The notes under the pieces were generated by a model. The model did not search any database, was not told the DNA's origin, and worked only from the letters and a program-made list of their open reading frames with translations. A stretch of 64,000 nucleotides of DNA from Terricaulis silvestris (GTDB taxonomy: Bacteria; Pseudomonadota; Alphaproteobacteria; Caulobacterales; Aquidulcibacteraceae): positions 3,064,501 through 3,128,500 of the forward strand of contig NZ_CP047045.1 in the NCBI RefSeq assembly GCF_009792355.1. The letters are read 5' to 3'. A program made the position numbers and the translations under genes. This document shows, one piece after another, positions 15,214 to 62,357 of this stretch (position 1 is its first letter; each line of letters begins with the position of its first letter).

Positions 15214-16623
15214 TCAGGCAGCTATAGGTTCCGCGCCGCCCGATGGCGCCAAGAGCAAGGGAAGGCGGACTCTCACGATCGTTCCAGTCGCCTCCACTGC
15301 CGATGGGACAATTGTGCCGCCGAGCTGACGCACGAAGATCGCAACGTAGTCGGAGCCGCGTTTCTCCGGCGCCTTTGGCAAGTTCGGATCCTTGTCCTTC
15401 ATGCCTATGCCGTTGTCGGTGACGCACAGCTCAATCTCATCGCCGACTTGTTCGACACTGAGCACGATGCGGCCCGTCCCGTCGGGAAAGGCGTGCTTTA
15501 TCGCGTTGGTCGCGAGTTCGTTGACCAGTAGTCCGAACGGCACGGCGCGATCGGGGTCGATTTCCAAAGGCTCTGCCTTGACCTCTATTTTTATGCCCGA
15601 CTCGTTTCGGAGCAGGCTCGCCGACACGGTCTTGGCGATTTCCTCAAGATAGGCGCCCACGGCAACGGTCCGGCCGCGGCTGGATTGTGATATCAGGTCG
15701 TAAAGTTGGGCGATGGCGCCGATGCGCGTCTGCATGGCCTGGTACCCTTGAACGCACGGCGCCGCCGTCCATCGCGACTCGAAGGCGATCAGGCCGACGA
15801 TGATCTGCAAGTTGTTCTTGATACGATGTGAGATTTCGTTGGTCAGCGTGACCGCATCGCGTTCGCGCTGCTTGCGGTCGGTAATGTCCTCGAACACGAG
15901 CAGCATGCGATGGGCGTGGTTGCCCGGCTGAGAGATTTTACGCGCATTCAAGTTGAAGACGCGCCGGCCGAGCCCTGGAAAAACATCCTCGATCTCGAAG
16001 CTCTCAATCGGTTTGTTTTCCGGGAGCACCTTCTCCATCAAATGCCGCAACGCCGGAACATCCCATTGATGTTGCAGCAGTTCGGAGACGCGGCGTCCTT
16101 TTGTTTCCGCCTGCGTAATCCCGAAAATCGTCAGAAAGGCCTTGCTCGCGGTCACAATCGTCATGTCGGTTTCGAGCACGACTAGGGGATCGCGAATGGT
16201 GTCGACGATGCTTTGGGTGAGCTGCCAAGTGCGCTTGCTCTCCTTGCGGGCCTCGCGCTCCTCGCTGACATCCTCGATGGCGAGCAGAATGTAGCCGTCA
16301 TGTTCACCGCCGCGGAGGATTTTCCGTGCGTTGACCAGCATGGTGCGCCTGCCAATGGTAGGAAAATCATGCTCGACCTCAAAGCCTTCAACTGACGCGC
16401 GATGAGGGATCACGCTCTCGAGCAGATTGCGCAGCGCGGGAATGTCCCATTGCCGGTTGCCGAGGTTGTAGATCAGAGACCCCTCAGTTTCCTGCGGGCT
16501 GGTTCGGAACGTCTGGTAGAACGCGCGATTGGCGGATTTAATAATCAGATTTTGATCGAGAATGATGAGTGCGCTGGGCACTGTTTCGACAATGTCGCCC
16601 GCAGCAATTTCGGAGTCCGCCAT
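15214..16623 (-). CDS. Sensor histidine kinase with two PAS domains (HisKA_2/HWE-like)
   Basis: A 469-residue soluble kinase. Two similar PAS domains (about 10-122 and 132-248) each carry a Q-W-D-(I/V)-P-A-L-R motif. Next is the HisKA_2 dimerisation/phosphoacceptor segment NEISHRIKNNLQIIVGLIAF (His near 262), then a HATPase domain with LVNELATNAIKHAFPDG and a G-loop region LCVTDNGIGM. No membrane segment is visible, so it senses a cytoplasmic or cofactor-bound signal. The ATG at 16623 has AGGTGA upstream and follows the response regulator stop by 25 bases, making a two-gene operon. Kinases of this class commonly feed the alphaproteobacterial general stress response, and the operon is preceded by an EcfG-type promoter motif. 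Confidence 0.9.
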   Translation of the reverse strand: MADSEIAAGDIVETVPSALIILDQNLIIKSANRAFYQTFRTSPQETEGSLIYNLGNRQWDIPALRNLLESVIPHRASVEGFEVEHDFPTIGRRTMLVNARKILRGGEHDGYILLAIEDVSEEREARKESKRTWQLTQSIVDTIRDPLVVLETDMTIVTASKAFLTIFGITQAETKGRRVSELLQHQWDVPALRHLMEKVLPENKPIESFEIEDVFPGLGRRVFNLNARKISQPGNHAHRMLLVFEDITDRKQRERDAVTLTNEISHRIKNNLQIIVGLIAFESRWTAAPCVQGYQAMQTRIGAIAQLYDLISQSSRGRTVAVGAYLEEIAKTVSASLLRNESGIKIEVKAEPLEIDPDRAVPFGLLVNELATNAIKHAFPDGTGRIVLSVEQVGDEIELCVTDNGIGMKDKDPNLPKAPEKRGSDYVAIFVRQLGGTIVPSAVEATGTIVRVRLPLLLAPSGGAEPIAA

Positions 16624-16648: not shown

Positions 16649-17014
16649 TCACACCGCAAGCATTTCCACGAAGGAGTCTTGAAGCTGTTGTTCTGTGTAC
16701 GGCTTTCTCAGAAAGTGCGTGCCAACAACGAACAGCGCCTTCATCTTGTCGGTGAGAGAGTTGCCCGTCGTGTAGAGCACACGCAGTTGCGGTCGAAGCG
16801 CGACGGCTTGGCGGGCGAGATCGCACCCGCCGAGGACCGATGCCTTGAGGTAGATATCGGTGAATAGCGCGTCGATGTGCTGAGGCGAGCGCAGAATCGC
16901 AAGCGCTTCGTTTTCGTCACCCGCCGACAGTGTTTCGTGGCCCCAATCTTGGATCATCATTTCCGCGACCATGCGGATCAGCGCGTCGTCTTCAACGACG
17001 AGTATTACGGCCAT
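16649..17014 (-). CDS. Single-domain response regulator (CheY-like receiver)
   Basis: A 121-residue stand-alone receiver, MAVILVVEDDALIRMVAEMM, with acidic residues 9-10, phospho-acceptor Asp53 in ALFTDIYL, Thr82/Thr83 in VLYTTGNS and Lys104 in FLRKPYTE. There is no output domain, so it must act by protein contact or as a phosphate shuttle. It is the first gene of an operon with a HisKA_2 histidine kinase. A GGAAC-N17-GTT motif lies 72-96 bases upstream. Single-domain receivers of this kind (for example SdrG and MrrA) act as phosphotransfer hubs in the general stress response of other alphaproteobacteria; that role is inferred here. A longer open frame through 17698 is a shadow of the next gene. 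Confidence 0.9.
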   Translation of the reverse strand: MAVILVVEDDALIRMVAEMMIQDWGHETLSAGDENEALAILRSPQHIDALFTDIYLKASVLGGCDLARQAVALRPQLRVLYTTGNSLTDKMKALFVVGTHFLRKPYTEQQLQDSFVEMLAV

Positions 17015-17085: not shown

Positions 17086-17110
17086 AACTCGCCTCCGAAA
17101 GAATGGTTCC
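17086..17110 (-). promoter_or_regulatory. EcfG-type (general stress sigma factor) promoter motif
   Basis: On the minus strand GGAAC (17110-17106) is followed after exactly 17 bases by GTT (17088-17086), the published core of EcfG/SigT-dependent promoters in alphaproteobacteria. It lies upstream of the response regulator/kinase operon and would give a leader of roughly 65 bases. A 10-base direct repeat GCATAACT (plus strand 17072-17089) overlaps the -10 part. Confidence 0.5.
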
Positions 17111-35443: not shown

Positions 35444-38400
35444 CTAGAACCGGGCCCGGGCGCCGATGGTGAAGAAGCGCCCAAGGATGCCAGGCGTGCC
35501 CCAAGACGGGTTGTAGCCAACCGCACCGTACGTCGTCGGATCGTATGCGGGGTCCTCACCCAGCACGTTCTGGACGTTCAGGTAGATCTGAACGGTGTCG
35601 TTCAGATCGTACGCGCCGTGGGCGTCGAGGTAGAACGAGTCGTCCACCTCGCAGACGATGATGGTCTCACCGTCCAGATATGTCGCCGGCGCGCCGGTTC
35701 CAACGCCGCTTGCGCAAGTGTCGTCATCGGCGTCGCCGCCAATGTCTTCGGCGACTGAGAGGTAGCCCTCGGTCCAATACGCGGTGAGCGAGAGCGAGGC
35801 CGGCCCGAACGTGAAGGTGTTCTGCCAGTTCAAGCGCCACTGCGGCGTACCGGAGGCGGCCGTGATGATGTATGGCCCGATCGTGCCGGCATATTCTTGT
35901 TCCGGCACGCCCTCGAACGCCTGCGTGAGGCTTTCGAGATAGGTGGCTTCACCAACCGTGCTCCACTCGACACCGCCCAAGTCGAACGAACCGCTCACTT
36001 GGAAGTCCCAGCCCGTGACTTGTTGCTCGCCGAGGTTCGCGAACGGCGTCTGCACATAGGCGATGCGCAGCGGGCCGGCCGGATTGTTCGGGTTCGGCGT
36101 ATCTTCGATGATGGTGATGCCTGGCGGAATCGGATCGCCTGCATAGTAGGCCGCGATCGCCGCCGAAGCGTCGACAGCGCCGATCACGTTCTCCTTTTCT
36201 ATGCTGAAGTAGTCAGCGGAGAACGCCCAATTGCCGAACGGCCGCACAACCACGCCGAGGTTCATGTTGACGGACTCTTCCGGCTGCAGATCCGGCGTTG
36301 CGATCTGGGAGAGACCCAGGCCGTAAATGCCGCAATAAGCCGGATCGCCACCGTGGTTGGCGTTGCACCAGTCGACGTCAGGCTGCGCCGCGATGAAGCC
36401 GGTGGTCGGATCCGCCGCCGTTTCGCCGAAGCTCGGGATGCGGAAGCCTTCCGAGTACGTTCCGCGGAATGCGAGGAACTCCAACGGCTCAAAACGGAAG
36501 CCAATCTTAGGCGAGAAGTCGCTCGCACCGGTCGAATAGGTGTCATAGCGCCCCGACACGTTGACGTTCAGCTGTTCGAACACCGGCAGATCGAGTTCGA
36601 AGCCGACTGCCTGGGTGTCGCGGGAGCCGGAAGCCCCGAACGGGTTGATGGTCTGGAAGTAACGATTGAGCGTGCCGCCTCTGTCGGAGTTCGCACTCGG
36701 GTTATCCAGCGACTCATACCGTGCCGAGGCCAGTAAGCCGCCTTCCGCCATGCCGCCTGGAAGCTCGAAGAGCTCCGTGGACACAGAAGCCTGGAGTTGC
36801 ACCAACTTGGAGTTCGAACGCTGAACGCTCGTTGGCGACACGAAGTCGCGGATCTCATCGGTGTTCTGGCTTGGATCGACAAAGTTGTAGGTGCCCTGCC
36901 GAATCGCGGCCATCAAGTTCGGGAAGAACAACGATCCTTCCGCCGTCACCTCGAGGTTTTGCTGCATGCCGGTGGCGCCGATGTCGTAGTGATACTCATG
37001 GCCGCCCATCGTGAAGTCGCCGTTGAAGCCGCCAGCCGCGCGGAAAGTTTGCACGAACTGACGGACCGACGCGTCGATGTCGCCGAAGCTGTACCAAATG
37101 CCGACTTCTTGCCCCACTCCCGCGAGTGGGTTGTTCGGGTTTAGAGCCGCGCCCACTTCGCTGCCGTCGCAGACATAGTTGAACGAACCTTGAGGGCAGA
37201 CGAACACCGGCAAGTTGGCCCGAGTTCCTGTCGCAGCATTATCGGTACGCCATTGTGGGCCGAAGATTGGATTGCTCGGCGGAGGCGTACGATTGCGGAT
37301 GTTCGGCGACGCGCCAGGCGTGAAGACGTCGTTCTGATAGTAGGTGCCCATCAGATAGGCTTCATGACTGCCGGCCAGGTTGAACGTGAGCCGCGCCGAC
37401 AACGATGCGCGCGTATCCTCTGGCGAAACCACGCCGAATTCGCGCTGCGGATCGAGCGAACAGACATTGGTGTCCGCCGCGAACCCGACCCCGGCGCCGC
37501 CTGGGATGACGCCGGGCGTCGTATGCTCGTTGCAGCTCGTATCCAGAAGCGAAAAGTCGCCAACGTACTGCGTCCCGTCCCACGCACGGATCATCGCGTT
37601 GGCCGATCCGAAGCCACGCGCGGCGGGCGCCGTGAAGGTGCCGTCGTGCTCAAGGCCCCAGAAGACGCCCGTTGCAATGCAGGTCTCGGTGTCGGCCGGA
37701 TCCAACGCGTTGACGGTGAGACCGCAAATCGACGTCAGGTCGGACGTAGTGGTCGGGAAGAAGTCTGCGTCCCGCGCCCAATAGATATCCTGCCTTTGAT
37801 ACTCAGCGGAGATGTAGAAGTTATAGCCATCCGTCCCGAGGTCGCCATGACCCCAAATGCCGGATAGGTTGAACTGCTCGGCCCCGTCGCCAGCGCCGCG
37901 GAAGGCGATGCTGCTATCGATGCTGGCGCCCTGATACTCTCTGCGCGTGATCATGTTGATGACGCCGGCGATCGCGTCGGCGCCGTAGGTCGACGACGCG
38001 CCGTCCTTCAGCGTTTCAACGCGCGCAATCACGTCCTGCGGGATCGTATTCAAGTCCACGAAGTTCCGCGTGCCGTCGTCGGACAGCGGGAAGTAAGAAA
38101 GCCGCATGCCGTCGACGAGCGTCAGCGTGTTGCTTGAGAGCAAGCCGCGCAACGAGACCGTGGACGCGCCACCCGCGAACGCGCCGTTTGCGGTGAAGCT
38201 GTTCGGCAGCGAACCGCCGGCGTTGCCCGACAGCGTCTGCAGCGCGTCGGCGATCGTGGTTTGGCCACGAGCCGCCATATCGTCAGCGCTCAAAATGCCG
38301 ATCGGATTGATGGAATTTGCGTTGCCGCGTAGAATCGAACCGGTGACGACGATGGTGTCGCCTTCTTCGACCGTCTCTTCTTCCGGCGGTGGTGGTTGTG

Positions 38401-55410: not shown

Positions 55411-56073
55411 ATGGCTCTGCGCATCAATGACAAAGCTCCCGACTTCGAAGCCGAGACCACCCAAGGCCGCATCAAATTCCACGATTGGATCGGCGACAGC
55501 TACGCCATCCTGTTCTCGCACCCGAAAGATTTCACGCCGGTCTGCACCACCGAGCTCGGCTATCTCGCCAAGCTTGAGCCGGAATTCGCCAAGCGCAACG
55601 TGAAGGTGATGGGCTTGTCGGTTGACCCCGTTACCGATCACGAACGCTGGCGCGGCGATATCAAGGAAGTCACGGGCGGCGACGTGCAGTATCCGATGAT
55701 CGGCGACAGCCATCTCAACGTCGCCAAGCTCTACGATATGCTGCCGGGCGATGCCGGCGATACGAGCGTGGGCCGCACAGCCGCCACCAACGCAACGGTG
55801 CGCACCGTCTTCATCATCGGCCCGGACAAGCTGATCAAGGCGACACTGCAATACCCGATGTCGTCCGGCCGCAACTTTGATGAAGTGTTGCGCCTGGTGG
55901 ATTCGATCCAGCTCACCGCCAAGCACAAGGTGGCGACGCCGGTGAATTGGAAGAACGGCGAGGACGTCATCATTGTGCCGGCAGTGTCGGACGACGAAGC
56001 CAAGACGCGGTTCCCCGAAGGCTGGACCACGGTGAAGCCGTACCTCCGCATCGTGCCGCAACCGAAGGGCTAA
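55411..56073 (+). CDS. 1-Cys peroxiredoxin (Prx6-type)
   Basis: A 220-residue peroxidase that reduces hydrogen peroxide and organic hydroperoxides. The active-site motif is SHPKDFTPVCTTELG with peroxidatic Cys45 and Thr42; the conserved Arg lies in NATVRTVFIIGPD. The long C-terminal arm (AKHKVATPVNWKNGEDVIIV, TVKPYLRIVPQPKG) is characteristic of Prx6. No resolving Cys is visible, so it needs an outside thiol such as glutathione. The ATG has AAAGGAG eight bases upstream. The next gene starts 85 bases downstream with a nearly identical ribosome-binding context, suggesting coexpression. Confidence 0.94.
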   Translation: MALRINDKAPDFEAETTQGRIKFHDWIGDSYAILFSHPKDFTPVCTTELGYLAKLEPEFAKRNVKVMGLSVDPVTDHERWRGDIKEVTGGDVQYPMIGDSHLNVAKLYDMLPGDAGDTSVGRTAATNATVRTVFIIGPDKLIKATLQYPMSSGRNFDEVLRLVDSIQLTAKHKVATPVNWKNGEDVIIVPAVSDDEAKTRFPEGWTTVKPYLRIVPQPKG

Positions 56074-56158
56074 TGCTGCGCTGCAACCGCCCCGCCCTGG
56101 GCGGCAGCGGTTGCGCGAGCGCTGCGAAAGTAGGACTCTCCCCTCTAAGGAGACGTCC

Positions 56159-57199
56159 ATGATTTTCGAGCAAGTCGCCAATGGCGGCTGCCAATCGTAC
56201 CTGATCGGCTGCAGCGAAGCCTGCGTCGGCGCGCTGATCGATCCGGAAGTGCGCAAGATCGACCGCTATCGGGCTCTCGCGGCCCAACACGGCGTGCGCA
56301 TCCAGTACATCATCGACACCCACACCCACGCCGATCACTTCAGCGCCTCAAAGCAGCTCAGCGAAATCCTCGACGTGCCGGTGATCGCGCATCGTTTGTC
56401 GCCGGCGCCTTATGTCGATCTTCGGATCGACGAAGGCGATGTGATCAAGGTCGGCAATATTCGGCTCACCGTGCTGCACACCCCGGGACACACGCGCGAC
56501 TCCATGAGCCTGGTCGCTAGCGACCGCGTCTTCACCGGCGACGCCTTGCTGATTGGCGCCACCGGCCGCACTGATCTGCCGACGGGCGACCCCGAGCAGC
56601 TCTATGACTCGCTCTTCAACAAGCTGCTGAAGCTCAGCCCCGATCTCCGCATCTATCCGGCGCACGTGTACAAGGGCAGCACCTGCTCTACGATCGAAGA
56701 AGAGCTCCGCTCCAACCCACGGCTGCAAAAGCGCGACCGCGGCGAGTTCGTCGAGATGATGCGCACCCTCTCGCTCTCTATGCCGGAGCATTTGACGGAA
56801 GCGCTGCGCGTGAACATGAGCGGCGGCGTTAGTGTCGCGCAGCTTTTGAGCGAGGCCGCCGCCGAAGTCCCGTTCATGTCGATGGAGGAAGTGAAGAGCC
56901 GCGTCGAAGCCGGCGCCAACGATTTCATCGTGCTCGACGTGCGCGAACGCGATGCGTTCGACGCGGCGCACATCCCGAGCGCCAAACATCTACCGCGCGG
57001 CCAATTGGAGCTTCGTGTCAACGAAGCCCTACCCGATCCGACATTGCGGATCGTCACCTATTGCGAGGTCGGCAAAATCTCGACCCTCGCGGCCGCCACG
57101 TTGCGGCGGATGGGCTTCACCCGCGCCGTCGCGCTCGATGGCGGCATGAAAGCGTGGAAGGAAAAAGGCTACCAGACCGAGGCCACGCCTCAGGCCTGA
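56159..57199 (+). CDS. MBL-fold hydrolase/persulfide dioxygenase-like protein fused to rhodanese
   Basis: A 346-residue two-domain protein. The N-terminal metallo-beta-lactamase fold has the iron/zinc ligands of HTHADH (His55, His57, Asp59, His60), TPGHTRDSM and FTGDALLIGATGRTDLPTGD, like glyoxalase II and persulfide dioxygenases (ETHE1/CstB). The C-terminal rhodanese domain (about 245-340) has FIVLDVRERDAFDAAHIPSA and active-site Cys302 in VTYCEVGKISTL. Such fusions oxidise glutathione or protein persulfide to sulfite and pass sulfur on via the rhodanese. Located after the peroxiredoxin, it fits sulfide and oxidant detoxification. The ATG has AAGGAG upstream. Confidence 0.92.
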   Translation: MIFEQVANGGCQSYLIGCSEACVGALIDPEVRKIDRYRALAAQHGVRIQYIIDTHTHADHFSASKQLSEILDVPVIAHRLSPAPYVDLRIDEGDVIKVGNIRLTVLHTPGHTRDSMSLVASDRVFTGDALLIGATGRTDLPTGDPEQLYDSLFNKLLKLSPDLRIYPAHVYKGSTCSTIEEELRSNPRLQKRDRGEFVEMMRTLSLSMPEHLTEALRVNMSGGVSVAQLLSEAAAEVPFMSMEEVKSRVEAGANDFIVLDVRERDAFDAAHIPSAKHLPRGQLELRVNEALPDPTLRIVTYCEVGKISTLAAATLRRMGFTRAVALDGGMKAWKEKGYQTEATPQA

Positions 57200-57462
57200 A
57201 CGTCAGCCGTGTCTGGGTGCCTACGGAAGTACGCCACGGCGAAGGCGCAGCTGGCGCGCAACTTCCGGCTCGTGCCACGTGCTTCGGACACCACTTCCGC
57301 CATCAGCTTGGACGCATAGCCGCGCCCCCGCGCCACCACCGGTGTCTCCACGTGCATGATCACCCGAACGCCGCCAATGTCGCGATAGTCGGCCCACGAC
57401 ATGCCTTCAGGCGCGTCGAGCTCGTAGCGGTGGCGTTCAATATTGTCGCGCAACGCGTTCAT
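57190..57462 (-). CDS. Small GNAT-like (YidJ/Gcn5-related) N-acetyltransferase
   Basis: A 90-residue protein of the short GNAT family: RDNIERHRYELDAPEGMSWA, GGVRVIMHVETPVVARGRGY, ASKLMAEVVSEARGTSRKLR and CAFAVAYFRRHPDTADVQ. The (R)GRGYASKL segment is the acetyl-CoA-binding loop. These single-domain proteins act on unknown amines. The start ATG overlaps the stop of the upstream VOC gene (ATGA), so they are coupled. The 3' end overlaps the convergent rhodanese gene by ten bases. Confidence 0.85.
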   Translation of the reverse strand: MNALRDNIERHRYELDAPEGMSWADYRDIGGVRVIMHVETPVVARGRGYASKLMAEVVSEARGTSRKLRASCAFAVAYFRRHPDTADVQA

Positions 57463-57845
57463 GTTTGCTCCGGCGTCGGCTTCGGCTCCCACAACTCGAT
57501 CTTGCGGCCTTCGAGATCGATGATGTGGGCGAAACGCCCATAGGACTCTTCTTGTTGCTTCACCGGCCAGACGCCGGCCTCCTTAGCGCGGGCGAGCATG
57601 CCGTCCATGTCGTCGACGATCAGGTTGAACATGAACTCCTTCTCGGACGGTTTGAAATAATCGGAGTCGGCGCTGAAGGCGCTGAACACAGTTCCAGAGC
57701 CGGGCTTGTCCTTGACCATGTCGGGAGTGAAAAACATGCCCCAATCGCTGATCTCAAGGCCAAGCACGCGGGCGTACCATTCGCGCAGCGCGGCGGCGTC
57801 CTGAGTCTTGAAGAAGATGCCGCCGACGCCGAGGACCTTGGCCAT
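57459..57845 (-). CDS. VOC-family protein
   Basis: A 128-residue VOC domain: MAKVLGVGGIFFKTQDAAAL, REWYARVLGLEISDWGMFFT, EFMFNLIVDDMDGMLARAKE and DLEGRKIELWEPKP with the terminal metal-type Glu. Likely binds a small molecule. First of a coupled pair with the GNAT-like gene; divergent from rlmJ with only 27 bases between the two starts, so their promoters must overlap the genes or each other. Confidence 0.86.
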   Translation of the reverse strand: MAKVLGVGGIFFKTQDAAALREWYARVLGLEISDWGMFFTPDMVKDKPGSGTVFSAFSADSDYFKPSEKEFMFNLIVDDMDGMLARAKEAGVWPVKQQEESYGRFAHIIDLEGRKIELWEPKPTPEQT

Positions 57846-57872
57846 TCGCTTCACTCCCGCTAAGCGCTGCTC

Positions 57873-58697
57873 GTGAACTACCGCCACGCCTTCCACGCCG
57901 GCAACCATGCCGATGTCCTGAAGCACGCCGTGCTGTTGTACTGTTTGGATGCGCTGAAGCGCAAACCCGCGCCGTTCGCGGTGTTGGATACCCATGCGGG
58001 GCGCGGCCTCTATGATCTGCAGGGCGCCGAAGCGGCGCGCAGCCCCGAATGGCAGGACGGCGTGGCGCGGCTGTGGGACTGGCGCGATCCGCCGCCGCTC
58101 GTCGCGCGCTATCTGGACGCCGTGCGCGGCTTCAATGCCGACGGCGCGCTGCGCACGTATCCCGGCTCGCCGGCGCTGGTGACCACCAACCTCCGCGACG
58201 AGGACGTGCTGATCGCGTGCGAACTCCATCCGGAAGAACACGCAATGCTCCGCCGTGCGCTGCCGCGCGTCGGAAACGTACAGGTCCACGAGCGCGATGG
58301 CTGGCAAGCCTTGAACGCGCTGCTGCCGCCGCCGCAACGCCGCGGACTGGTGTTGATCGATCCGCCGTACGAAGCGCCGGACGAACTGGCGCAAGCTGCG
58401 CGCGCTCTCGGGCCGTCGCTGAGGCGGTTCGGCCACGGCATGTATCTGTGGTGGCGGCCGCTAAAGAGCGAGAGCGCGCTCAACGCCGCCGACGCTGAAG
58501 CCCGCGCGCAAGGCGTCAAGGAAATGCTCCGCGCCGATTTGTGGGTCGCCGCGCCGACGCCGGAGGGACGGCTGGTTGGATCGAGCGTGTTGCTGATCAA
58601 TCCGCCGTTCGGCCTGCGCGAAGCGCTGCAGGACGCGTTGCCGTTCCTGGCCGACGCGCTGACTAAGGGCCAAGGTGGCTGGCGATTAAGTTCCTAG
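57873..58697 (+). CDS. rlmJ: 23S rRNA (adenine-2030 N6)-methyltransferase
   Basis: A 274-residue SAM-dependent methyltransferase: NYRHAFHAGNHADVLKHAVL is the RlmJ signature, FAVLDTHAGRGLYDL is the SAM motif and GLVLIDPPYE is the catalytic D-P-P-Y motif of N6-adenine methylases. It modifies A2030 of 23S rRNA in E. coli. Start is a GTG at 57873. The C-terminus reads GGWRLSS, and the TAG stop (58695-58697) lies within the left arm of a palindromic element, so the original end may have been replaced. Confidence 0.94.
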   Translation: MNYRHAFHAGNHADVLKHAVLLYCLDALKRKPAPFAVLDTHAGRGLYDLQGAEAARSPEWQDGVARLWDWRDPPPLVARYLDAVRGFNADGALRTYPGSPALVTTNLRDEDVLIACELHPEEHAMLRRALPRVGNVQVHERDGWQALNALLPPPQRRGLVLIDPPYEAPDELAQAARALGPSLRRFGHGMYLWWRPLKSESALNAADAEARAQGVKEMLRADLWVAAPTPEGRLVGSSVLLINPPFGLREALQDALPFLADALTKGQGGWRLSS

Positions 58698-58798
58698 AGT
58701 CATTCCAGACACGCGGAGCGTGATCTGGAATCCAGGGCCAACGACGGAGCGGTTGCCCTGGATTCCAGATCGGCCTCCGGCCGTCTGGAATGACTCTA
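58693..58798. repeat. Palindromic element overlapping the rlmJ stop (106 bp)
   Basis: Two nested perfect inverted repeats: CTAGAGTCATTCCAGAC (58693-58709) with GTCTGGAATGACTCTAG (58782-58798), and GATCTGGAATCCAGGGC (58721-58737) with GCCCTGGATTCCAGATC (58753-58769). Related words (CTGGAATNAC/CTGGAATCC) occur in both arms. The first three bases of the left arm's TAG end rlmJ. Confidence 0.88.
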
Positions 58799-58840
58799 GC
58801 TATTTCAACAACGGCTTCGGCCATTTGGAATTACAAATAA

Positions 58841-58866
58841 AAGGGCGCGGATTGCTCCGCGCCCTT
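58841..58866 (-). terminator. Terminator of the 31-residue small-protein gene
   Basis: AAGGGCGCGGA, loop of four, TCCGCGCCCTT, then on the minus strand TTATTTGT. It lies 22 bases after the small gene's stop. Confidence 0.85.
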
Positions 58867-58888
58867 CCCCCTTGCCACGAGCGTCGCC

Positions 58889-58984
58889 CTACCAGGCGAC
58901 GATCATCGCGGCTTGGTTCACCGTCGCAAACGCGGCCGGCACGAACACCGCAACCGCTGCGATCAAACTGTAAAACCTCGACAT
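58889..58984 (-). CDS. Small hydrophobic protein (31 residues)
   Basis: A very short gene. Translation from ATG 58984 gives MSRFYSLIAAVAVFVPAAFA followed by TVNQAAMIVAW and TAG: a basic start, one membrane helix or a signal-peptide-like segment and a short tail. Support comes from GGGGAG eight bases upstream, a full rho-independent terminator directly after, and a GTGACA-TC-TGTCAC palindrome at 59059-59072 that could be its operator. Function unknown. Confidence 0.65.
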   Translation of the reverse strand: MSRFYSLIAAVAVFVPAAFATVNQAAMIVAW

Positions 58985-59058
58985 GGCGTGCTCCCCGGCT
59001 CGAATTTCATCGCGTCGTTGCGATGCATGAAAGCTAGGCGCCCGCCCGTCGGCTCGCC

Positions 59059-59072
59059 GTGACATCTGTCAC
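59059..59072. promoter_or_regulatory. Perfect palindrome GTGACATCTGTCAC
   Basis: Six-base arms with a two-base centre in the gap between the 31-residue gene (minus) and a response-regulator gene (plus). Operator-like; the binding protein is unknown. Confidence 0.4.
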
Positions 59073-59107
59073 GCCGCCGTCAACTGCGGAGGAACCGCAG
59101 CGCGGCT

Positions 59108-59132
59108 GGAACCGCCCAGACCCTCTCCAGTT
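59108..59132 (+). promoter_or_regulatory. EcfG-type (general stress sigma factor) promoter motif
   Basis: GGAAC (59108-59112), 17 bases, GTT (59130-59132). The predicted start site leaves about 20 bases of leader before the response-regulator ATG at 59160. It has the same spacing as the motif before the other single-domain regulator at 17086-17110. Confidence 0.55.
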
Positions 59133-59159
59133 AATCCCGCTGGGAAGGGACGCCCATCA

Positions 59160-59591
59160 ATGTCGCACGCCGCCGAGCACCGTGAGGACTGGCGACAGCC
59201 AATCGTGTTGGTTGTCGAAGACGAGCCGCTGATCCGGATGGCCATGGCCGCCGCTTTTCGCCGGGCCGGGCTCACCGTCATCGAGGCCTGCGACGCCGCG
59301 GAGGCGCTGGACATCGTCCACACCGGCGTCGAGCCAGATGCGCTGCTGACCGACATCCTCATGCCGGGACCGATCGATGGGCTTCGTCTAGCGGCGTTGC
59401 TGGAAGCCACGTTCCCAAGCATGGAGGTGTTTGTCTCTTCGGGCTACCTGTCCGGCTCCGACCTAAAGCTGCGCCTGAACTTCATCCCCAAGCCGACGGA
59501 GCCCGACGCGGTGGCGCGCGCAATCAAGTACGTCCTTATGCGCGGCAAACCAGAGGTTGGGCCGCAGCCGGACTGGCGCTTGCCTGACTAG
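59160..59591 (+). CDS. Single-domain response regulator (receiver)
   Basis: A 143-residue stand-alone receiver: PIVLVVEDEPLIRMAMAAAF with the acidic pocket, DALLTDILMPGPIDGLRLAA with phospho-acceptor Asp65, EVFVSSGYLSGSD with the switch Ser/Thr, and FIPKPTEPDAVARAIKYVLM with Lys111. Short tails at both ends. No output domain. It resembles single-domain receivers that work beside HWE/HisKA_2 kinases, and its gene has an EcfG-type promoter motif, pointing to the general stress network. Followed by a VUT-family membrane gene 24 bases later on the same strand. Confidence 0.88.
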   Translation: MSHAAEHREDWRQPIVLVVEDEPLIRMAMAAAFRRAGLTVIEACDAAEALDIVHTGVEPDALLTDILMPGPIDGLRLAALLEATFPSMEVFVSSGYLSGSDLKLRLNFIPKPTEPDAVARAIKYVLMRGKPEVGPQPDWRLPD

Positions 59592-59615
59592 CCTGGCCAT
59601 GCGCATGAAGCGCGC

Positions 59616-60233
59616 ATGACCTTCGATTCCGCGCTGGCCTTCCTGCAGCAGCCTCACATCGCCATCCCGATCGTGGCGGCGACGGTGCTTGTCATCTTCC
59701 TGATGAAGCGGCCTTGGACGGCGCTCTATGTTGGGTTGATGCCGCTGATCAACTGGGCGTTCGCCGGCATCGACACCATCGCGATCCCGGAAAACCTCGG
59801 CGGCGGCGCCTGGCATCCCTTCACCATCGTCACCGGCCTCGTACTGGTGGTGCGCGACTTTGCGCAGCGCGAGATCAAGCACTGGATTCTGGGCGCGATG
59901 GTCGTGGGGCTGGCGCTCTCGACGCTGACGGCGTGGCCGGTGATCGTGGTGGCGAGCGGCGTCGCCTTCCTGATCAGCGAAACGGCGGATTGGGCGGTCT
60001 ACACCTTCACCAAGCGGCCACTCTCCCAGCGCATTTTGATCTCAAGCGCAGTCGGCGCGCCGATTGATCAGATCGCCTTCATCGGTTTGGCGTCTCTCGT
60101 CGTGCCCGGCATTTTCGCCTGGGGCACGATTCTGACAGGCATCATCTCAAAGCTGATCGGCGCCTACATCGTCTCCCGGATCGTGGCGCGCCAAGAGCGC
60201 AGGGCCGCGCAAATCGAGATGAATCCCGTGTAA
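59616..60233 (+). CDS. VUT-family transporter (queuosine-precursor transporter-like)
   Basis: A 205-residue membrane protein with about six helices. Segments include PHIAIPIVAATVLVIFLMKR, FTIVTGLVLVVRDFAQREIK, GVAFLISETADWAVYTFTKR, SSAVGAPIDQIAFIGLASLV and GIISKLIGAYIVSRIVARQE. The S-E-x-x-D-x-x-V-(Y/F)-T motif is the hallmark of the YhhQ/VUT family, energy-coupled importers of preQ0/preQ1 for queuosine synthesis. The sequence supports the family but not the exact substrate. Its first ATG is 24 bases after the response-regulator stop. Confidence 0.85.
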   Translation: MTFDSALAFLQQPHIAIPIVAATVLVIFLMKRPWTALYVGLMPLINWAFAGIDTIAIPENLGGGAWHPFTIVTGLVLVVRDFAQREIKHWILGAMVVGLALSTLTAWPVIVVASGVAFLISETADWAVYTFTKRPLSQRILISSAVGAPIDQIAFIGLASLVVPGIFAWGTILTGIISKLIGAYIVSRIVARQERRAAQIEMNPV

Positions 60234-60444
60234 ACCCTTGATTTGCCGCTTGCGTGGGGGAAACCCCTCGCTCATAAGCGCAGGGTGAGAAGCTGGCGTG
60301 TTGCCAGCAAGTGGTGCGAAGTTCCGCGGCGTGCGGCAAGTTTTTGAATCCCCAGCAAAGCTGAAATTCGCGGTGACGTGCGTGCGCATAGGCGTGCGCG
60401 CGGCTTTTGGCGTTCGCCAAGAGCCATAATCAGGACAAGTGGAA

Positions 60445-61203
60445 ATGAGTTTCGACGACGAAGAAGGCGACGACGACAAGACCGACGATCGCAAGAAGGA
60501 CAAGCGCGCGGGACGCCGCGACAAGACAGCAGAACCCACGCCCGAGTTCGGCGGCGGTGACACCGGCGGCAGCAGCTTCGGCGGCGGCGGCGGTGGTTAC
60601 GGCGGCGGCGGTGGCGGTGGCTACCGGGGCGGTGGCGGCGGCGGTGGTGACCGTGGCGGCGGCGGTGGCGGCTATGGCGGCGGCGGATATCGCGGCGGCG
60701 GTGGCGGCTTCGGCGGCGGCGGTGGTGATCGCGGCGGTGGCGGCGGCGGATATCGCGGCGGCGGCGGTGGTGGCGGCTACGGCGGCGGCGGTGGTGACCG
60801 TGGCGGCGGCGGCGGCGGATATCGCGGCGGCGGTGGCGGCGGCGGTTATGGCGGCGGCGGCGGCGGTGGCGGTGGCTATCGCGGCGGCGGTGGTGGCAGC
60901 GGTGGCGGCGGCGGATTCCGCAGCGGCCCGCGTGAAGGCGGCGGCGGCTTCGGCGGCGGCGATCGTCCTCCGCGTCAGCCTCTCGGTGATCCGCAGGACG
61001 GCGTTGTGAAGTTCTTCAACGGCGCGCGTGGCTTCGGCTTCATCACGCCGGACGGCGGCGGCGCCGACGTGTTCGTGCACGTCAGTGCCGTTGAGCGCGC
61101 CGGCCTGACGCAATTGGTCGAAGGCCAGCGCGTGAACTTCCAGACCCTGCCCGACACCAAGGGCAAGGGTCCGAAGGCTGTGAACCTGAAGGTCAACGAC
61201 TAA
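60445..61203 (+). CDS. Cold-shock-domain protein with a long RGG/glycine-rich N-terminal arm
   Basis: A 252-residue RNA-binding protein with an inverted design. Residues 1-35 are acidic and Lys-rich (EEGDDDKTDDRKKDKRAGRR). Residues 36-170 are nearly all Gly with regularly spaced Arg, Tyr and Asp-Arg (GGYRGGG, GGDRGGG), an RGG-type disordered arm. The last 68 residues are a complete cold-shock domain with RNP1 ARGFGFITPDG and RNP2 VFVHVSAVERA. Most bacterial Csp are just the domain. RGG arms bind RNA and promote condensates in eukaryotic proteins, so an RNA-granule role is possible. The GTG at 60439 is an alternative start. Confidence 0.9.
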   Translation: MSFDDEEGDDDKTDDRKKDKRAGRRDKTAEPTPEFGGGDTGGSSFGGGGGGYGGGGGGGYRGGGGGGGDRGGGGGGYGGGGYRGGGGGFGGGGGDRGGGGGGYRGGGGGGGYGGGGGDRGGGGGGYRGGGGGGGYGGGGGGGGGYRGGGGGSGGGGGFRSGPREGGGGFGGGDRPPRQPLGDPQDGVVKFFNGARGFGFITPDGGGADVFVHVSAVERAGLTQLVEGQRVNFQTLPDTKGKGPKAVNLKVND

Positions 61204-61207
61204 GATC

Positions 61208-61320
61208 GGCAGTCGGCAGTCGGAAATCGGCAGTCGGATGACTCAAAAACGAACTCCCCGGGCGCAGGTCCGGGGAGTTTTTATTTCACGACTGCCGACT
61301 GCCGATTGCCGACTGCCGAC
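61208..61320. repeat. Inverted CAGTCGG-heptamer arrays flanking the cold-shock gene terminator
   Basis: On the left, tandem CGGCAGT units (61206-61237); on the right the complement (61289-61320). A 24-base stretch matches with one mismatch. The terminator hairpin sits between them. The right array directly precedes the TAG stop of the convergent SRPBCC-GyrI gene. Confidence 0.8.
61254..61286 (+). terminator. Terminator of the cold-shock gene
   Basis: CTCCCCGG, loop of eight, CCGGGGAG, then TTTTTATTT on the plus strand. Confidence 0.9.
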
Positions 61321-62357
61321 TATTGCAGCGGCATGTAGATTTCGAGCCGCGTCGGCGTTGAGCCATCGACGGCGCCCTGGTTGTGTACGACTTCCCACGG
61401 CAGACCGTTCTCACGCATCGCAATCCGGTGGGCCTGCATGTAGGCGTTCATCTGCGCGTAGGCCGTGCGCACCTGGGCGCGTGAGCCTTCCACCAGCACA
61501 TGCATGGCCTCACCCGATGGCGTCTGGCCGAGTTGCACGCCGACCACTGTGAGCGGCGTCGGCCCCGAGAACGGATAGCCGACGCGGAAGCTCATGCGGT
61601 TGGTGGCCTGATCGTATTCCGTGACGACGCGCACCAGCGGCCCTGCTTCAGTGAGCTGATACTCGCTCATGAAGCGGCGCACCTGTTCAAGCCCCATCGC
61701 CTCGGCGCGGTTCACTTCGGTCAGATCGACGGCGGAGGTTTCAACGACCGAGTAGACGAAGTTCTGCGGTTCGATGGTGTCGAACTGGGGCGAGAGGCCC
61801 TCGAAGTTCACGTTGGGCAATTGCTCGGTCAGTGTCTTCAGCCGGGTCAAGCCGCTTTCGAGCTCGGCGCCAACGGCGCCGCGCATGATCAAATTCATGT
61901 ACCGGCACGGCACGTTCACCGCGCCTTCCGCGCAGTCAGCGGTCACGGTCCACGCCACCGACGTAGCGTTCTCACCCGGGCGCAGCGCGATCACGGAATT
62001 CAGCGTCGCGCGATCGCCCATTTCCAGGATTGACTGGACTTCTTCGTTCTCGCTGGAGCTGACGATCGACATCCGCCCACGGCCGACTTCGCGGACGTTG
62101 GAGATCCAGCGCATCGACTGGCCCTCGCCAGGATCGCCGTTGAAGGCGTAGTCGGCGTCAGGGTCGCGCGCGTAATACGGCGACCATTCCTTGGCGATCC
62201 TGAGATCGTTGATCATGGCGAACACCGAAGCGCGCGGGCGCTCGATCGAGGCAGTGCGGGTGACCTCAAGATTGTTCGGCAGCAGGAAGCGGCCAACGCC
62301 GTAGAGCACGCCCGTGATGAGCGCGACCACCAGCAATAGCCAAAGAAACCACCTCAT
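61320..62357 (-). CDS. Membrane-anchored SRPBCC plus GyrI-like ligand-binding protein
   Basis: A 345-residue protein with an N-terminal helix (LWLLLVVALITGVLYGVGRF), then a polyketide-cyclase/SRPBCC domain (about 32-165; TRTASIERPRASVFAMINDL, EWSPYYARDPDADYAFNGDP) and a GyrI-like effector-binding domain (about 190-345; PQNFVYSVVETSAVDLTEVN, LPWEVVHNQGAVDGSTPTRL). The two ligand-binding folds are held at the membrane, probably in the periplasm. Such SRPBCC-GyrI fusions are common and uncharacterised; a sensor of hydrophobic molecules is a guess. The stop abuts the CAGTCGG repeat. Confidence 0.85.
   Translation of the reverse strand: MRWFLWLLLVVALITGVLYGVGRFLLPNNLEVTRTASIERPRASVFAMINDLRIAKEWSPYYARDPDADYAFNGDPGEGQSMRWISNVREVGRGRMSIVSSSENEEVQSILEMGDRATLNSVIALRPGENATSVAWTVTADCAEGAVNVPCRYMNLIMRGAVGAELESGLTRLKTLTEQLPNVNFEGLSPQFDTIEPQNFVYSVVETSAVDLTEVNRAEAMGLEQVRRFMSEYQLTEAGPLVRVVTEYDQATNRMSFRVGYPFSGPTPLTVVGVQLGQTPSGEAMHVLVEGSRAQVRTAYAQMNAYMQAHRIAMRENGLPWEVVHNQGAVDGSTPTRLEIYMPLQ

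Follow-up and report, generated by a model that had tools for sequence, protein, structure and literature searches.

A probable EcfG-type promoter with an off-consensus -10 element before a receiver-only response regulator of Terricaulis silvestris

Two questions are raised by the sequence GGAACCGCCCAGACCCTCTCCAGTT, located at positions 59108-59132 (forward strand) of the 64,000-nucleotide stretch of Terricaulis silvestris DNA analyzed here (the window): whether it is a general stress promoter of the response regulator gene behind it (RR2), and whether it connects RR2 with a second regulator of the window (RR1). The sequence reads GGAAC-N17-GTT, or equivalently GGAAC-N16-AGTT, and is separated from the ATG of RR2 at 59160 by 27 bases on the same strand, which agrees with the distance of about 28 bases given in a first-pass annotation. 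The features involved were the following:

58889..58984, minus strand: divergent small gene (31 aa), marking the left end of the interval that holds the apparent RR2 insert
59108..59132, plus strand: putative EcfG-type promoter (-35 element GGAAC, 59108-59112; -10 element AGTT, 59129-59132; N16 between them)
59160..59591, plus strand: RR2, intact receiver-only response regulator of 143 aa (PF00072, 8.6e-15)
59616..60233, plus strand: yhhQ-like transporter (Pfam Vut_1; PF02592, 1.3e-8), 24 bases after RR2
17086..17110, minus strand: EcfG-type site before RR1 (N16-AGTT)
16649..17014, minus strand: RR1, receiver-only regulator of 121 aa (PF00072, 1.5e-12)
15214..16623, minus strand: PAS-PAS-HisKA_2 histidine kinase downstream of RR1, which it follows in all three orthologous loci

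The site before RR2 probably does function as an EcfG promoter, its -10 element deviating slightly from the consensus (AGTT for CGTT), in which case RR2 would be a stress-induced receiver, with RR1 and its kinase in the same regulon. Its GGAAC and GTT elements were within the 17-20 bases of each other expected for this promoter type, it was placed in the ~100 bases upstream of a gene on the same strand, and the genome encoded EcfG, NepR and PhyR. In this family, phosphorylated PhyR binds NepR and thereby releases EcfG. The PhyR of the genome combined a receiver with the two sigma-like domains of PhyR, the gene for the EcfG-type ECF sigma factor overlapped nepR, and phyR and nepR were each preceded by GGAAC-N16-CGTT on their own strand. 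A third CGTT site of the genome was located at an entericidin gene.

As a promoter control, the best NepR match of each genus genome having one was used (22 of 30 genomes, hence 22 loci), leaving out five weaker second NepR matches, which had no site, and a second plus-strand AGTT match in locus L044. The nepR-side site ended in CGTT at all 22 loci, while the divergent site, assigned to phyR from its divergence from nepR (PhyR itself being checked in L001 only), ended in CGTT at 19 loci, AGTT at two and GGTT at one. Pooled (n = 44), 41 sites had CGTT, two AGTT and one GGTT, compared to the AGTT found before RR2. Given its presence at 2 of the 22 phyR-side sites, AGTT was regarded as a minor but used form. 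In Sphingomonas melonis, the EcfG promoter consensus is given as GGAAC-N17-20-GTT, and the EcfG-regulated genes of Table 1 of the same source include AGTT and CATT sites (PMC6599016). Around RR2, a search for E. coli-type sigma-70 promoters in 58680-59700 returned no match, and an Rfam search of 56000-62000 gave nothing at the gathering threshold. Between 59091 and 59115, GGAACCGC was present twice, 17 bases apart, with a GTT at the correct distance for the second copy only.

Counting of the bare pattern was uninformative in the window, where three GGAAC-N16..18-GTT matches were present over both strands compared to a shuffle mean of 5.0. In the whole genome, 202 matches were found compared to 348 for a reversed-pattern control; the bare pattern was thus enriched at neither level. 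The match at 37203-37228 was internal to a called gene. Among the 68 called genes of the window, an exact copy in promoter position preceded only RR2 and RR1. The first-pass annotation had noticed the motif in two intergenic regions only, both leading to receiver-only regulators, and this was borne out.

In place of bare counting, the spacing spectrum at promoter positions was determined in 56 segments of 20 kb each from outside the window, which together make up 1.12 Mb or 29% of the genome and hold 1140 genes called with a simple codon model. Promoter-placed, same-strand GGAAC/GTT pairs numbered 15 at N17 (of 22 matches) and 9 at N18 (of 15 matches), compared to 40 over 21 control spacers (mean = 1.9). 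The N17 value was ~8-fold above the control mean (Poisson P ~2e-9), which argues that promoter-placed sites are mostly real in this genome. Twelve of the 15 N17 sites lay 5-60 bases before a start, like the RR2 site, compared to 13 of the 40 controls. With ~1.4 promoter-placed N17/N18 sites expected per 64 kb, the two sites of the window correspond to the usual density. Concerning the base before GTT at promoter-placed N17 sites, CGTT was found nine times (control 0.38), GGTT four times (0.75), and AGTT (0.5) and TGTT (0.75) once each; AGTT was therefore not enriched in the sampled genome, and neither was CATT (1, control 0.62). When the analysis was restricted to 5-100 bases before a start, AGTT was absent at N16 and found twice in total at 25 other spacers in the 1.12 Mb, so that chance AGTT sites near starts are also rare. 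Among the genes behind the N17 sites, 10 of 15 were submitted to Pfam and five were above the family cut-off (ExoD, DUF4440, PRC-barrel, PagL and CBS).

RR2 possessed E20/D21, D65, S93/S94 and K111, which we take to be its receiver residues. The yhhQ-like gene, presumably involved in queuosine-precursor import, is probably co-transcribed with RR2, judging from the 24-base gap. Of 29 genus relatives, 23 had a yhhQ locus, and none of these 23 loci showed an RR2 match; the RR2 site was therefore not footprintable in place. Homologues of the 31-aa small gene were recognized at 15 of the 23 loci, and the distance from its start to the yhhQ match was 122-213 bases in 10 relatives compared to 632 in the window, so that RR2 and its promoter look like an insert of ~500 bases. 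From this comparison, the insertion of RR2 between rlmJ and yhhQ appears to be lineage-specific. The upstream element of the small gene was common to relatives up to ~59073, and the motif lay beyond it, in sequence that was not alignable by eye.

A motif inherited from yhhQ before the RR2 insertion was also considered and rejected, as GGAAC-N16..18-GTT was absent before yhhQ in all 23 relatives (the search began at the small gene or at rlmJ, or otherwise covered 600 bases). Several other elements were observed in this region. A palindrome, GTGACATCTGTCAC (59058-59073), which we take to resemble a CRP-family site, lay upstream of the 31-aa gene, with a similar element at the same place in relatives; a terminator-like hairpin (58868-58839) followed the same gene; and an inverted repeat (58694-58799, 50-base arms, 84% complementary), looking like a dispersed palindromic element, was located directly after rlmJ. 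The inserts of the rlmJ-yhhQ interval (58698-59615) differed by genome: RR2 in the window and, in relatives (L090, L091, L108), a nitroreductase in G020, an Rce1-like protease in G029 and, in G008, a protein of 158 aa that matched no Pfam family.

Beyond this interval, two of the 59 other family genomes had a close RR2 homologue (E up to 1e-20; 53% and 47%), in neither case with the upstream motif; one of these genomes, G020, has nepR. A scan of named genomes yielded just a 28% receiver match on an Anaerolineaceae contig, which was set aside. In six relatives (G029, G007, G004, G027, G024 and G018), the best RR2 matches were receiver-only proteins beginning MSPAE, and GGAAC-N16-CATT was present 20-31 bases before the ATG in all six, compared to 27 bases for RR2. 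Conservation of the motif upstream of RR2 orthologues, which the first-pass annotation had proposed as a check, was thus mixed, with none at the two nearest homologues and a related form at the six more distant best matches.

When the G029 MSPAE protein, the only one tested in reverse, was compared with the window's genome, RR2 ranked first (40%, 1.2e-19; next 1.1e-10). In the tree, RR2 was joined firmly to the G020 homologue (100/98) and weakly to the MSPAE family (60/90), and its orthology to that family is not secure. At all six loci (L006, L007, L008, L009, L011 and L013), the gene of the MSPAE receiver was divergent from that of a second receiver-like protein, which had a basic tail, was below the receiver cut-off where tested (L006), and was preceded on its own strand by GGAAC-N17-CGTT (five loci) or GGAAC-N16-GGTT (one locus). 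The window's genome lacked the divergent receiver pair at the matching position, its neighbours being directly adjacent to each other there. The CATT of the MSPAE sites is a putative rather than a proven EcfG -10 element. These six loci indicate that receiver-only genes of the genus are repeatedly preceded by EcfG-type sites, which suggests that the feedback receivers of the general stress pathway may turn over quickly.

Close orthologues of RR1 were present in G011 and G008 (85%) and in G020 (75%). The AGTT site was kept in two of the three, G011 and G008, which are nearly alike at the RR1 leader and hence not independent witnesses, and was missing in G020; the leader after the site was also partly conserved, so that conservation was not confined to the motif. 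As the RR1 site was kept in two of three orthologues and CATT sites preceded all six members of the best-hit family, the coregulation of RR1 and RR2 proposed in the first-pass annotation appears plausible. Its extension to a single circuit of RR1, RR2 and the kinase at 15214-16623 is not supported by anything computed, RR2 being 42 kb from the kinase and in another operon. The coincidence of motif and receiver-only genes behind this proposal held in the window and was weaker genome-wide: 2 of 14 recognized receiver-only regulators (38 of 52 receiver matches examined) had the motif, compared to 24 N17/N18 sites per 1140 genes (P ~0.03, post hoc), which ties receiver-only genes as a class only marginally to the motif in this genome.

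Under the single-circuit explanation, the kinase would phosphorylate both RR1 and RR2, and EcfG would raise both, closing a feedback loop. RR1 and RR2 share a site type, two of the 30 genus genomes contain both an RR1 orthologue (four in total) and an RR2-like gene (three in total; P = 0.04, kinship uncorrected), and stress-pathway receivers and HWE/HisKA_2 kinases of Caulobacter and Sphingomonas are described as promiscuous (PMC5964349). These points are set against the absence of a kinase gene beside RR2 in the window and, as inspected by eye, within 14 kb around each of the two RR2 homologues, where a protein ~3 kb from the G020 homologue lacked a kinase domain and matched PAS below threshold only. 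RR1 and RR2 also share just 35% over 82 residues and are separated in the tree (deep branches weakly supported), and no close RR2 homologue accompanies RR1 in G011 and G008. The single circuit is accordingly considered improbable.

A chance match, with RR2 having arrived with another promoter and GGAAC-N16-AGTT fitting by accident, is a more serious alternative, though still rather unlikely. In its favour are the rarity of AGTT among the control promoters (2 of 44), its lack of enrichment in the genome sample, the motif-less close homologues and the commonness of the bare pattern across the genome. Against it, an accident at this spot is made unlikely by how the site is spaced, by how far it lies from the ATG and by how seldom promoter-placed AGTT is found at control spacers, although the site was picked post hoc; the related MSPAE family also has a similar site at the same place. 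GGAAC-type -35 elements are also common to other ECF groups, and the AGTT and CATT of these sites differ from the CGTT of the phyR and nepR sites, as would be expected if another ECF sigma factor with a different -10 preference used them; the AGTT sites of RR1 and of the phyR side, by contrast, fit EcfG. This is the least probable of the alternatives. The EcfG-type promoter proposed in the first-pass annotation thus stood as the best reading, with its sigma factor and partner switch encoded in the genome, and is qualified by the off-consensus AGTT and the two closest RR2 homologues without the motif.

If the site is an EcfG promoter, stress would lead to the phosphorylation of PhyR, its binding to NepR and the freeing of EcfG, and the EcfG-RNA polymerase would start ~6-8 bases past the -10 element, near 59138-59141, transcribing RR2 and then probably yhhQ by read-through across the gap. 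RR2, having no output domain, would most likely exchange phosphate with HWE/HisKA_2-type kinases feeding PhyR, and may serve, much as LovR or MrrA do, as a sink for feedback or as a shuttle; RR1 and its kinase would form a second, better conserved member of the regulon. More tentatively, EcfG may drive a changing set of receiver-only genes across the genus (RR1 with its kinase, the RR2 insert and the divergent pair of six relatives), each lineage having its own feedback receiver on the PhyR-feeding phosphorelay, and the insertion in the window would also place the yhhQ-like transporter under general stress control. The general stress regulon of this genus of Alphaproteobacteria would then have gained a lineage-specific receiver, and the RR2 site would offer a simple test of the tolerance of EcfG at the first base of the -10 element.

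The promoter type is well known. The RR2 site shares the -35 element, spacing, GTT and distance to the coding sequence of the EcfG/SigT promoters described for Sphingomonas melonis (PMC6599016), and the EcfG-NepR-PhyR system is likewise present in this genome, whereas RR2 has A instead of C before GTT and a site unconserved in its two closest homologues.

RR2 resembles the FATGUY receivers MrrA and SdrG in being receiver-only and in that it might serve the general stress response as a hub or shuttle. Its assignment to this type was rejected, as it has VSSGY (92-96) instead of FATG[G/Y]; it also retains, three residues ahead of K111, the aromatic F108, presumably at the Y-T coupling position, where loss of the aromatic residue is the other mark of the type. 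Another receiver-only gene, L204 (G000:C1:3045889-3046209), located ~18 kb left of the window, has PLAFCTGYD, looks more FATGUY-like than RR2, and is a candidate for the MrrA/SdrG-type hub of this genome.

The lovK and lovR genes of Caulobacter crescentus, reported as SigT-controlled and as draining phosphate from MrrA (PMC5964349), are the precedent for a stress-controlled receiver, so the kind of system is already known. RR2 has no adjacent kinase, HWE/HisKA_2 kinases included, its phosphate-sink role is putative, and the RR1 kinase showed no LOV domain. The likeness lies in RR2 being a receiver-only protein with an intact acceptor site behind a putative general stress promoter, and in RR1 being encoded with a HisKA_2 kinase of its own.
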